Source: a virus
Reading direction: 5' to 3' (one strand)
Virus record (IMG/VR): IMGVR_UViG_3300005836_000034
Location: 1-20,685 of that record
DNA length: 20,685 nucleotides
The notes under the pieces are model-generated. The model was given only the letters and a program-made list of their open reading frames with translations. It was not told the DNA's origin and made no database searches. The translations under genes and the position numbers were made by a program. Shown here one piece after another: positions 1,308-6,515 of this stretch. Positions within the stretch are counted from its first letter, which is position 1. Every line of letters begins with the position of its first letter.

Positions 1308-1851
1308 CGGTTCATCCCGCCCGGCCCGAACTGCGAGACGAGATCGCGGATCTCGTCCTCAGTCGCCAACCCCTCCGGTCCGCTCTTGCTCTTGATTCCC
1401 ATGTAGGCTTTCACCATCAAGTGCAGCGGTGGGTTCTGGTTCCAGTACGCCGCGAGCTCGTCAACCTGCGGCATGCTCAGCTCGTCGATCTCCGCGAGAG
1501 TCCATCCGGTGACGGTGACGATCAGGCCGTAGAGACCGACCCAGTCGACGATGCCGTCACCTGCTCTTTTCCCTGGACGAAGCCGCTCACCCCCAGCACG
1601 GCTAACAGCACGTCTTTCAGGTTGCCGAGATCCAGGAAGCCTTCGACCTCTTCGGCGGTGATCTCCTGATAGTTGCGCACGATCGCCGAGTGGACGACCT
1701 CGACGACGGTGTCCATCTCTTCGTCCGTCGGGATGTCGCCCATGCTCGTGATCGCGCGGAGCTTCGGTGCGAGTTTGCGCACCGACTTCAAAGAGAGAGG
1801 CGGGACCGTGAAGTCCCGCCCCCCGAGGGTCAGTTTGACGCCGTCGATCAC
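1304..1851 (-). CDS. Tail assembly chaperone, -1 frameshifted long form (gpGT-like)
   Basis: Fusion product of about 182 residues: codons 1-95 of the short form are read, then the ribosome slips back one base on G GGA AAA (1573-1567) and reads a second open frame of 87 codons to TGA at 1306-1304. The extension starts RAGDGIVDWVGLYGLIVTV and continues with AAYWNQNPPLHLMVKAYMG, ending GPGGMNR. It has no start codon with a ribosome binding site of its own near its beginning, as expected if it is made only by frameshifting. In lambda the T extension binds the tail tube subunit while G binds the tape measure; the same division of labour is inferred here. The tape measure start overlaps the stop of this frame. 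Confidence 0.85.
1508..1573 (-). promoter_or_regulatory. -1 programmed ribosomal frameshift signal (heptamer plus stem-loop)
   Basis: The slippery heptamer GGGAAAA occupies 1573-1567 and is phased X XXY YYZ in the chaperone frame. After a 5-nt spacer (GAGCA) comes GGTGACGG (1561-1554), which pairs perfectly with CCGTCACC (1515-1508), giving an 8-bp stem around a 38-nt loop. Heptamer type, phase, spacer and downstream stem all match the usual -1 frameshift layout; lambda G/T uses the closely related GGGAAAG. Frameshift efficiency cannot be read from the sequence. Confidence 0.85.
1522..1851 (-). CDS. Tail assembly chaperone, short form (gpG-like)
   Basis: 109-residue protein beginning MIDGVKLTLGGRDFTVPPLS, a typical start for siphovirus tail assembly chaperones, which coat the tape measure protein while the tail tube polymerises. 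It sits between tail tube and tape measure genes, as in lambda (gpG/gpGT). ATG at 1851 overlaps the stop of the tail tube gene as ATGA, indicating translational coupling. A slippery heptamer at codons 94-95 allows some ribosomes to leave this frame, so the last 14 residues (from E96) belong only to the unshifted product. The sequence itself is not strongly diagnostic; position plus the frameshift signal make the call. Confidence 0.85.
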   Translation of the reverse strand: MIDGVKLTLGGRDFTVPPLSLKSVRKLAPKLRAITSMGDIPTDEEMDTVVEVVHSAIVRNYQEITAEEVEGFLDLGNLKDVLLAVLGVSGFVQGKEQVTASSTGSVSTA

Positions 1852-2603
1852 AGATCGTCCTGGTACTCGGACAGGACGTTTCCGGCCCCGTCCGCGAACG
1901 CCTCGTACTCGATGTCCTGGATCGCGTAATCGTCGTTCTTGAACGGCAGGGAGTGCTTCGTGAGGGTCGCCGCGTTCATGCGAAGACCGAAGCTCTTTCC
2001 GCGGAAGGTGTTGAACATGGCGACGCCGATGACCGTCCCGGCCCCCATGAGCTGATTCGCGTAGGCGATCGTTTTCCCCGAGGCCGCGACCGTGTAGCTG
2101 TAGCTGATCGCGACGTGGAGCCCGGAGACGTTGTCCGCCGAAGCGAAGGTGTAGACGCCCGCTGCGCTGACCGCGTACTGGCCGGCGGCCGGGGCCGATA
2201 CGACGCGCGTGAACTGCACGCCCGTTTCGACGCAGACGACGCCGAGGTCCTCCTTGAACGTCGCGCCGTTCGCCACGGTCAACTGGAAGGGAGTCGCCGG
2301 GATCGCGCCGGCGGTGCCGGGAAGTTCTCCCTCGATGCCCTTGACCTGGCCGGTCGTCTGGACGCCGCCCGAGAGGACCTGCAACCAGAGCCCGCTGTTC
2401 AGCTGCGCGAACTTCGCCTTGCCGGATGCCTTGGCGGCGCCGCGAGCGATGTCGACCGGGAACTGGTAGGCGCCGCGCAGCTCCTTGATCGTGAATGAGG
2501 TTTCGAGGCTCACCTCCTGGAGCACGCCGACTTTGACCGGGGTGGGAGTCGCCCCCGGCGGAACGATCGTGAGGAACCCTGCACCGAAGTTGTATTGCGG
2601 CAT
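1848..2603 (-). CDS. Major tail tube protein
   Basis: 251-residue protein beginning MPQYNFGAGFLTIVPPG, of the length and composition expected for a siphovirus tail tube subunit, the protein that forms the hexameric rings of the tail. It is rich in beta-prone, G/A/S/V-rich segments (for example SYSYTVAASGKTIAYANQ) and has a polar, conserved-looking end (KSFGLRMNAATLTKHSLPF). It lies directly upstream of the frameshifted chaperone and downstream of the tail terminator, its normal location. Start ATG at 2603 is preceded by GGAG eight bases away. The stop overlaps the chaperone start (ATGA). The 49-nt gap to the terminator gene (2604-2652) holds only this ribosome binding site. An additional Ig-like domain cannot be excluded. 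Confidence 0.85.
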   Translation of the reverse strand: MPQYNFGAGFLTIVPPGATPTPVKVGVLQEVSLETSFTIKELRGAYQFPVDIARGAAKASGKAKFAQLNSGLWLQVLSGGVQTTGQVKGIEGELPGTAGAIPATPFQLTVANGATFKEDLGVVCVETGVQFTRVVSAPAAGQYAVSAAGVYTFASADNVSGLHVAISYSYTVAASGKTIAYANQLMGAGTVIGVAMFNTFRGKSFGLRMNAATLTKHSLPFKNDDYAIQDIEYEAFADGAGNVLSEYQDDL

Positions 2604-2652: not shown

Positions 2653-3582
2653 TCACGCTGCGGCCAGCATCTGAATGGGGACTCGCACGGCGGCCTGGCC
2701 TTGCGCGATGCCTTCGACGACGAGCGCCGGGAGCATCCATGCGTACTGGACGAGGCCTCCGAGCGTCGTCTGATGGCGTCGCTGCCCGAAGAACGGGTTG
2801 TCCTTGAGCGACGGGTCGAAGTCGGCCTGTTGCGCTTCGAGCGCGTTCTCGATCGCCGTCAGCGCGGCGTTCAACTGCGCGCTTGGGATCATCTCGGTCG
2901 GCTCATCGAGCCGGAAGTACATGTAGACGAACGCTTCGAGCATCCACGTCGGAGGCACGCCGAGCCGGTTGACCGGGGTCTGATCTCCGGTCGCGAGGTA
3001 CAGCGCCGGCTGCTCGTCGCGGGAGATGTCGTCCCACGTCTTCAGCCGGCGGGACATGGTGACGAAGCCTGGCACGTTCGCCTGAAGCCGCGCGAACAGC
3101 GCCGCGTAGATCGGCTCGCGATCGAGCGCCATGATTTCCTCCTCGGTCAGCGGGAGCTCGGCCTCTTGGAGCTCGAAGTCGTCGATGGCCCACGTCGCCT
3201 GGCCGTTGCCGGGAGGCGGCGAGGCTTGCAGCGTCATCTGCACGGTCGCGGCTTGCGGCGTGTACTCACCGAAGTCGTAAAGAACGAAGTCCGCGGTGAC
3301 GCCGACGGGGAAGGCGACCTCGTAGGCCGCGACGCCGTCGTCGAGAATCAGGCTCCCCGATCCGACGTCCTCGACGACCCGGATCCACACGAGCAGCGGG
3401 TAGACCTGGCCGACGACGAGGGTGAGCGTCTTCGTCCATGCCGAAGCGGTCGTGTTCGCACCATGCTTCGACGACGCGAGCGACAGCGCCGTCGGCGGCG
3501 AGACACTCCCGTTGTCGCTCGTGATCTGGGCGCGGCCAGAGACCGCCCCATCCCCGAACGGCGGGTTGAAGATGAGTTTCAT
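2653..3582 (-). CDS. Tail terminator-like protein with N-terminal beta-sandwich-like domain
   Basis: 309 residues that look like two proteins in one frame. The C-terminal part (about 151-309: MALDREPIYAALFARLQANV, TWMLEAFVYMYFRLDEP, then a helical region and MLPALVVEGIAQGQA) resembles tail terminator proteins, which cap the tail tube and join it to the head. The N-terminal 145 residues look like a carbohydrate-binding-type jellyroll: NPPFGDGAVSGRA at the start, alternating beta strands, and the ending ATWAIDDFELQEAELP, similar to the closing strand of CBM-like modules. An internal ATG at 3132 (codon 151) is preceded by AGGAGG (3143-3138) with a 5-nt spacer, so a separate 159-residue terminator could also be made. 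ATG at 3582 overlaps the upstream stop. Terminator assignment is by position and length; the N-terminal fold is inferred. Confidence 0.7.
   Translation of the reverse strand: MKLIFNPPFGDGAVSGRAQITSDNGSVSPPTALSLASSKHGANTTASAWTKTLTLVVGQVYPLLVWIRVVEDVGSGSLILDDGVAAYEVAFPVGVTADFVLYDFGEYTPQAATVQMTLQASPPPGNGQATWAIDDFELQEAELPLTEEEIMALDREPIYAALFARLQANVPGFVTMSRRLKTWDDISRDEQPALYLATGDQTPVNRLGVPPTWMLEAFVYMYFRLDEPTEMIPSAQLNAALTAIENALEAQQADFDPSLKDNPFFGQRRHQTTLGGLVQYAWMLPALVVEGIAQGQAAVRVPIQMLAAA
3130..3143 (-). promoter_or_regulatory. Strong internal ribosome binding site inside the tail terminator gene
   Basis: AGGAGG at 3143-3138, spacer AAATC, then an in-frame ATG at 3132. It falls exactly at the junction between the beta-sandwich-like half and the tail terminator-like half, so it probably allows independent translation of the terminator. 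It is a better ribosome binding site than that of most gene starts in this window. Confidence 0.6.
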
Positions 3583-4070
3583 CCGCGCACCGCCATGATC
3601 GCGGCGCGCGCGAGCCGCATGCGCACCTCGGGACGCATCTCCTCGAGCGAAGGCGCGAGGAACGGCCGGGCCGCGAAGTGCTTGATGCCTGGCGGGTGCT
3701 TGTAGATGTGGATCTCGCGGGCCAGCCCGCCGAGGTTGGCGAGGCCGCCGCTGGCATCGGCGCCGACCGGGCGATCGAACCCGCGTTCCCAGAAGGCGCC
3801 GTAATTGACGTTCGTCCCAACCGTCCCGACGATCTCGTCGCCGTTGACGCGCACGCTCTTGTTGATGCTGCGCTTCAGGCGCCCGGTCTTGACGTGCAGC
3901 ACCTGACCGGACAGCTTCTCTTCCTTGACCTTGCGCTGAAGCTGGATCGAGAGCCGCTCGACCTCTTCGCGGATCCGCTCGCGCGAGCGCGCGCTGGCGT
4001 TCACGAAGTTGAGGCGCACCGACTCGGCGCCGACGACCGTTGCCGTGATCTGGATCGGCGCACCGCTCAT
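3579..4070 (-). CDS. HK97 gp10-family head-tail (tail completion) protein
   Basis: 163 residues with the hallmarks of the HK97 gp10 family: a charged N-terminal helix (RSRERIREEVERLSIQLQRK), the motif HVKTGRLKRSI at about 59-69, VGTVGTNVNYGAFWERGF at about 81-98, and the closing AARPFLAPSLEEM at about 133-145. Members act at the neck, completing the head-tail joint. It lies between the gp6-like adaptor and the tail terminator, the normal order. ATG at 4070 overlaps the upstream stop (ATGA) and its own stop overlaps the next start. Length is typical. Confidence 0.85.
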   Translation of the reverse strand: MSGAPIQITATVVGAESVRLNFVNASARSRERIREEVERLSIQLQRKVKEEKLSGQVLHVKTGRLKRSINKSVRVNGDEIVGTVGTNVNYGAFWERGFDRPVGADASGGLANLGGLAREIHIYKHPPGIKHFAARPFLAPSLEEMRPEVRMRLARAAIMAVRG

Positions 4071-4955: not shown

Positions 4956-6515
4956 TTACCCGTTGCCGATGTTGGTCAGCATCGCGAAGGCCGGCGGGAA
5001 CCGGTTCTTCAGGAGCCCGTCCATGTAGATGCCGTACTCGTACTTGAGCGAGCGCAGCGGCCACTCGAGCTGGAAGTAGTCGTTGCGGCACTCCTTCTCG
5101 ATGACCGAGGGGATGCCGCCGACCTGGTAGTTCAGGGTGTCGGTGTAGAACAGGATCGTGCCGGCCGGGCAGAAGGGGTGGATCTGGATCTCGATCAACG
5201 CCGGTCCGCCGGTCGCGAACTTGTTGAGGTAACCCGATGTCGCCATGCCGCCGACGAGTCCGCTCTGGTCTGCCGTCAGGTTGAAGCGGAAGGCCGGGTT
5301 GGAGCTGCCCGCCAAGATCTTCTGCTGGATGTTCTGCGCCTCTTGCGAGGAGATGAACATGATCTGCGGGGTGAGGCGCGCGGTGTCCCACATCGCCTTC
5401 AGCGTCGCGTCGATCTCGACGATCCCGCCCTTGCCGTCGGCGGTGAGCGGCGTACCGGTTCCGAGCGTGCCGTTCGCCATGATCCCGACGATCGAGCCGG
5501 CCGTGGATCGGTAGAGGGTGCACGTCGATCCGACCGTCGAGTACGAGGTCAGCGCGGACGTGCCGATCAACTGCGTGAGCAGCCCGTCGTAGACGAGCGC
5601 GTTCGTCGACTGGTCGGACGCCGGGTGCGCGGAGGCGTTCTGCGTGCCCGTGCTGTTCGCCGTGAAGAGCTGCGAATTGATCGTGGTGATCGAGTGCAGC
5701 AGTTCCGAGCCCGAGGCTCCCACGAACCAGGCGTAGGCGAAGGCGCCGCGCACCGGGGCCACGACCGCGGAGATCGAGAGGTTGCCGCCGGCGGTCGTCT
5801 GCGCGGATGCCGCCGACTTCCTGGCCGCTCCCGATCCGAAGCTGTCGGACGAGGCGTCCGCGTTCGTGCGGGCGATCGGACCGACGACGACGCCGCCCGA
5901 GACGGACGCCGAAAGGTAGCCCTGAAGCGTGAGCGCGATGCAGATGACGTTCGTCGCCTGCGCCGTCAGCGCGCCGCCGGCCACGAGAGCCGTGGTCGGG
6001 GTGGGCGTGGTGCCGAGGGCCTGCGAGGTGTTGCCCCCGAGGTCGACCTGCTCCTCGAAGATCATCAAGGCGTTCATCAGGCCGCGCCGGGCGAGCGGGC
6101 GCAGATCGGCGAGCTGCTTGGCCGACCAGTTGGCCTGGAACGTGACGTAGTCTTCGAAGCCCAGCGTCCGGTAGGGCGCCGTGTACTCGGTGAGCGTCGT
6201 GGCGATCGCGCCGCCGCGGTTTCCGTCCGACGTGCCGCCCTGCATGTTGCCGGAGTTGACGGCGGTGACCGCCTTCCAGTTCGACGCCGTGCCGAGGCCG
6301 TTGCCGTTCCTCGGGACGCGGTTGCGGATGGGCGTGATCCGCGGGTAGAGCTCACGCGGGGGGGCTTCGAGGTTGTACCAGACGAAGCCGACCGTCTGGG
6401 AGTTGGGCTGCGCGAACGCCTTGGCGAGATCTTCGCGGCCGCCGGCTAGGGCGCCGCCCAGAAGCGCGAGAACGCCGGGGTTGAGGTTGAGCGAATCCCT
6501 GATTCCTGCTTGCAT
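4956..6515 (-). CDS. Major capsid protein, HK97 fold, with probable insertion domain
   Basis: 519 residues, longer than a bare HK97-fold capsid protein. The N-terminal part (about 30-165) and C-terminal part (about 350-519, including QIMFISSQEAQNIQQKI, ALIEIQIHPFCPAGTILFYT and ECRNDYFQLEWPLRS) fit the capsid core, with the typical late strand leading into a charged segment. Between them, about 168-330 is a G/A/S/T-rich, beta-prone stretch with an Ig-like look (AVVAPVRGAFAYAWFVGASG), read as a surface insertion domain. It lies directly downstream of the protease-scaffold gene. Start ATG at 6515 is preceded by AGGAG at 7 nt spacing. The 24-nt gap to the protease gene holds that site only. The capsid call is strong; the nature of the insertion is inferred. 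Confidence 0.85.
   Translation of the reverse strand: MQAGIRDSLNLNPGVLALLGGALAGGREDLAKAFAQPNSQTVGFVWYNLEAPPRELYPRITPIRNRVPRNGNGLGTASNWKAVTAVNSGNMQGGTSDGNRGGAIATTLTEYTAPYRTLGFEDYVTFQANWSAKQLADLRPLARRGLMNALMIFEEQVDLGGNTSQALGTTPTPTTALVAGGALTAQATNVICIALTLQGYLSASVSGGVVVGPIARTNADASSDSFGSGAARKSAASAQTTAGGNLSISAVVAPVRGAFAYAWFVGASGSELLHSITTINSQLFTANSTGTQNASAHPASDQSTNALVYDGLLTQLIGTSALTSYSTVGSTCTLYRSTAGSIVGIMANGTLGTGTPLTADGKGGIVEIDATLKAMWDTARLTPQIMFISSQEAQNIQQKILAGSSNPAFRFNLTADQSGLVGGMATSGYLNKFATGGPALIEIQIHPFCPAGTILFYTDTLNYQVGGIPSVIEKECRNDYFQLEWPLRSLKYEYGIYMDGLLKNRFPPAFAMLTNIGNG

Follow-up and report, generated by a model that had tools for sequence, protein, structure and literature searches.

This locus raises the question of whether a single open reading frame (ORF), in which a carbohydrate-binding-like domain precedes a tail terminator, yields one structural protein or two, and where the additional domain would then be placed on the virion. 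The window analysed here is the whole stretch of 20,685 nt, a 20.7 kb IMG/VR contig from an uncultured long-tailed phage with its late genes on the minus strand. Two products of 309 and 159 residues had been proposed in a preliminary description, and the coordinates and lengths were confirmed: the minus-strand ORF encodes 309 aa, and 159 aa follow from an internal ATG at position 3132 (Table 1). When an extension of the ORF was examined, the 172 codons upstream of it were open, yet ATG, GTG, and TTG were all absent from them. The overlap of the long start with the gp10 stop suggests that translation of the long ORF may be coupled to gp10. The GC content at the three codon positions of the N-terminal part (0.65/0.47/0.88) is similar to that of the flanking genes, and on this composition the N-terminal part is coding sequence. 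The product of the downstream gene is named a probable tail tube protein because of the gene order.

Table 1. Features of the fused jellyroll-terminator locus and its neighbours in the window.
Feature	Positions	Strand	Basis
Fused ORF, CBM-like jellyroll and tail terminator	2653..3582	-	309 codons, single ORF; two-domain model
N-terminal domain, residues 1-150 (core about 28-143)	3133..3582	-	Galactose-binding-like jellyroll (moderate confidence); fold, relation to L007, codon composition
Tail terminator, 159 codons from the internal ATG	2653..3132	-	phrog_8150; T5 p142/lambda gpU fold; starts of homologues
Internal ribosome-binding site, AGGAGG and AAATC before ATG 3132-3130	3133..3143	-	Sequence; -11.8 kcal/mol
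ATGA overlap of gp10/Neck1 stop with long-ORF start	3579..3582	-	Sequence
Neck1/HK97-gp10 family tail-completion protein, directly upstream	3579..4070	-	phrog_5, E 7.6e-14; PF04883
Probable major tail (tube) protein, downstream	1848..2603	-	phrog_8234, E 1.5e-49, no named function

The PHROG match, the predicted fold, and the gene order identify residues 151-309 as a tail terminator, and the identity proposed earlier thus stands. Residues 153-308 matched phrog_8150 (PHROG 8150) with E values of about 4e-26 to 4e-25, and phrog_4204, a tail terminator, was matched weakly over the same residues. The full-length AlphaFold2 model, built from 25 alignment rows with two rows from annotated phage records left out, consists of two separate domains. 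The terminator fold begins at residue 151-153, with pLDDT mostly 77-96. T5 p142 superposes on residues 152-309 with Z 15.1 and rmsd 2.1 over 132 residues, lambda gpU superposes with Z 13.8, and the terminators of DT57C, Mu, pyocin R2, and others do so as well. By fold comparison, the predicted model has the TrP fold of siphophage tail terminators, and the gene lies in the position expected for them, between the gp10/Neck1 and tail-tube genes.

A carbohydrate-binding-type beta-sandwich ending in WAIDDFEL had been described for the N-terminal part, with structure prediction and a fold search suggested as a check. These returned an independent, CBM-like N-terminal domain at moderate model confidence, with a mean pLDDT of 54 when modelled alone; in the full model, pLDDT is about 60-85 for residues 41-121 and stays under 50 in residues 1-44. 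CBM35-, CBM6-, and CBM22-type domains, a hyaluronan-binding module, and Cry domain III superpose on residues of about 28-143 of the full model with Z of about 9-10; the best values (9.2 for the domain alone, and 9.2 to CBM35 and 10.0 to Cry11 for the full model) barely exceed the stated background of the fold-search tool. CBM4 and CBM61 were also among the fold matches, and the predicted fold is the beta-sandwich of the CBM4/6/22/35/61 group. WAIDDFEL occupies residues 131-138 and is followed by an acidic linker of 13 residues to the internal Met. Because the fold matches are accompanied by an N-P-x-F...WAIDDFEL pattern, we accept with moderate confidence that the core is a galactose-binding-like jellyroll resembling CBM6, CBM35, and CBM4. 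The domain is placed in no CBM family, since it matched no CBM profile in Pfam, NCBIfam, or PHROGs, and no ligand is assigned to it. No usable match to the domain came from sequence searches of phages, viral contigs, PDB, Pfam, NCBIfam, and PHROGs, and a search of genome contigs with the full-length protein gave zero matches. Matches to a Streptomyces plasmid (E 0.5) and to Caulobacter phages (E 3-7) were judged to be due to chance. A viral structure library yielded only weak matches, which included a neck passage structure protein and tail fibres. Non-CBM proteins, including Cry domain III, match the domain about as well as the CBMs do, and glycan binding is something that we infer from the fold alone.

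At the junction of the two domains, the sequence reads CTGACCGAGGAGGAAATC-ATG, that is, the AGGAGG, 5 nt (AAATC), and in-frame ATG reported earlier. The Shine-Dalgarno (SD) pairing energy is -11.8 kcal/mol at this internal start vs. -8.5 at the long start. It ranks best among the 58 in-frame internal ATGs in the window, is beaten by none of the 20 gene starts examined there, and is equalled by about 1.2% of random window positions, which is above chance. The unpaired values for SD and start are 0.34/0.34 at the internal site vs. 0.20/0.04 at the long start, so the internal site is less folded and the long start is poorly accessible. Free-standing homologues begin at the internal ATG, right after gp10, with MAIDHEAPY (L008), MALDREAIY (L089), or MALDREPIY (L090-L092). 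Because it coincides with these starts, the internal start is, on the sequence comparison, the ancestral start of the terminator. An in-frame start with a ribosome-binding site at a domain boundary is the arrangement of two-product genes, and the earlier prediction of 309- and 159-residue products is consistent with the fold searches, the relatives, and the SD strength. The short form of 159 aa is almost certainly the working terminator, and the gene probably makes both plain and decorated versions of it.

Relatives were collected from three viral-contig scans with terminator alignments, together with L002 and annotated phage records. Both gp10 and a terminator were present at 126 loci, 98 of them distinct by sequence. 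In almost all loci, the two genes abut or overlap (-13 to +4), one gap is +40, and one row was unpaired; L019, L023, and L048 have gaps of 188-230 nt without a jellyroll. ORF-sized inserts occur only in the window (447 nt) and in the contig L007 (621 nt), both in frame with the terminator. In the survey of separate vs. fused genes that had been suggested, L007 was the only contig to share the fusion, and gp10 was followed directly by the terminator in nearly all of the 98 distinct relatives. Where other terminators are preceded by long in-frame openings, these overlap gp10 in high-GC DNA and were rejected as fusions. A small ORF lies in the gap of L019, and L023 and L048 (188-197 nt gap) carry repeat-like DNA (CGCTCCTCAGCATGAGG...) at the same junction where the window has its jellyroll. 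By comparing these loci, the gp10-terminator junction is seen to be an occasional insertion site.

The identity of L007 to the window is 57-59% in the terminator, 25-29% in the N-terminal domain, 54% in gp10, and 53% in the tail tube. The two N-terminal domains align with a BLASTP E of 0.003 in a single comparison, and 0 of 1000 shuffles reached this score. The distance from DD[F/I]E to the Met is 13 residues in both, and the internal start of L007 has a GGGGG site with the same spacing and the same Met, although it is weaker (-8.4). Since L007 has the same arrangement, linker length, and internal start, the jellyroll-terminator fusion that had been claimed, and that the single ORF and two-domain model also bear out, is real and conserved in one relative, and it is unusual. 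The long ORF of L007 has its own gap after gp10 and a strong SD (-10.2). Between the gp10 stop and this SD, a hairpin (L007 3117-3140, GGCCGCG-TTATAG-CGCGGCC; -16.7 kcal/mol in a 40-nt fold) could tune the coupling. The N-terminus of the L007 long ORF resembles a Sec-type signal peptide (IALVVALLCVAA, mean hydropathy 3.2), and a signal peptide is absent from the N-terminus of the window copy. The L007 long form would consequently be exported, unless initiation is at a second in-frame ATG at 3258 (SD -6.5), which aligns to the long start of the window and could give a non-exported long form.

We hypothesize that gp10 and the terminator gene became separated by the in-frame, stop-free insertion of a CBM-like jellyroll segment, and that the terminator retained its own start codon while a strong SD was kept or gained. 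The main product would be the ordinary terminator of 159 aa, which forms the hexameric ring capping the tail, and ribosomes coupled from gp10 would additionally make the long form of 309 aa. Most likely, the ring would take up a few long subunits, whose jellyroll would then sit on the outside rim of the neck and could bind glycans of the host surface or the environment in a weak, reversible manner. As a whole, this explanation is favoured tentatively, at slightly below an even chance. It is plausible that a minority of long subunits shows the domain at the neck, by analogy with lactococcal phages, in which neck structure, tail tube, and Dit carry CBMs (PMC6669499), and with phage genes whose internal start leads to hetero-oligomers, in ratios including 1:5 for an endolysin (PMC9430671) and 1:3 (PMC7098653). 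In R4C, the two main helices of the terminator are at the ring periphery (PMC10276861), an arrangement in which an N-terminal domain can point outward. On the other hand, the N-terminus of the T5 TrP lies in the subunit interface and contributes contacts, and N-tagged p142 stays monomeric (PMC11784142); long subunits may therefore assemble poorly. The mixed ring is further weakened because the L007 signal peptide suggests export and only two examples of the fusion are known. That dual initiation on one gene places a few glycan-binding domains at the neck, as a start-site counterpart of decorations made by frameshift, is possible but doubtful.

The same L007 features lend themselves to another explanation, in which a cargo ORF has lost its stop. 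The jellyroll would work outside the virion, e.g., exported or at the surface of the infected cell, the terminator part of the long product would be a by-product, and the short form alone would build the tail. The separate gap, hairpin, strong SD (-10.2), and Sec-type signal peptide of L007 fit such cargo, as do the much faster divergence of the N-terminal domain (25-29%) than of gp10 (54%), terminator (59%), and tail tube (53%), and the acceptance of other inserts by the junction (the small ORF of L019, the repeat-like DNA of L023/L048). However, the window copy lacks a signal peptide and its start is probably coupled to gp10. Frame and linker length of 13 residues are preserved in both phages, but this point is weak, as a random run of 13 codons has a 79% chance of being free of stops. 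We regard this explanation as unlikely, though worth serious attention.

If instead only the long form entered the ring, there would be six decorated subunits and an incidental internal start, as might be implied by the single ORF and by the conservation of frame and linker in both phages; given that the strongest SD of the set sits precisely at the ancestral start and that the terminator N-terminus is engaged in subunit contacts (PMC11784142), this is improbable. Cleavage of a long precursor near the acidic linker, which separates two independently folded domains in the model, would also free the jellyroll from the terminator. It is very improbable, and an internal start is the simpler explanation of the short form. 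Finally, an assembly or sequencing artefact merging two genes could be suspected in a single metagenomic contig, but it is largely refuted by the same fusion in the independent contig L007 and by the continuous codon composition, and is hardly credible.

Weak adhesion domains are a frequent addition to the tail, capsid, or neck proteins of phages, and in several phages frameshifting limits their number. If true, a terminator that carries an N-terminal jellyroll but retains its internal start would be a new decoration site with a simpler dosage device, and it would show the addition of a domain to an essential ring protein without loss of the plain subunit. Gene callers report one protein of 309 aa and may miss the working terminator. 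The window tail tube (1848-2603, minus strand) and the L002 head-tail connector (1583-2404) have in common an insert of about 80 residues (33% identity, E 6e-8), which is, by sequence comparison, a mobile beta domain shared by structural proteins of two kinds. A large serine/alanine-rich beta-type insert, which occurs also in L007 and L008, seems to be present in the probable major capsid protein (phrog_13692; 4956-6515, minus strand).

Among known systems, lambda gpU, T5 p142, and SPP1 gp17 (phrog_8150/phrog_4204) share with the window gene the fold, the order between gp10/Neck1 and tail tube, and the length of the short product. Known siphophage terminators begin at the equivalent of residue 151, whereas the window ORF carries an extra N-terminal domain. 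Terminators of myophages and PVC are among those with extra domains, which have other roles (PMC11784142), and our literature search found no report of a CBM or N-terminal CBM-like domain on a tail terminator. Lactococcal 936/P335 phages (NPS, MTP-TpeX, evolved Dit) likewise have a carbohydrate-binding-type beta-sandwich on a neck or tail protein, and TpeX is a limited-copy long form produced by frameshift (PMC6669499, PMC10688798). Their carriers are NPS, MTP, or Dit, whereas in the window the carrier is the terminator, the domain is N-terminal, and the choice between long and short forms is predicted to be made by the start site. In the Milano collar protein gp13, a jellyroll is present at the neck and the decorating part is like glycan-interacting proteins, but gp13 is a separate protein that forms four 15-mer rings without a terminator fusion (PMC10491603). 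In the endolysins CTP1L, LysIME-EF1, and LysP7951, an in-frame internal ribosome-binding site and start give full-length and N-truncated subunits that co-assemble; these, however, act in lysis and are not part of the virion structure. Both adhesion domains added to structural proteins of phages and genes with two in-frame starts are thus already known, and the fusion is a variant of these.
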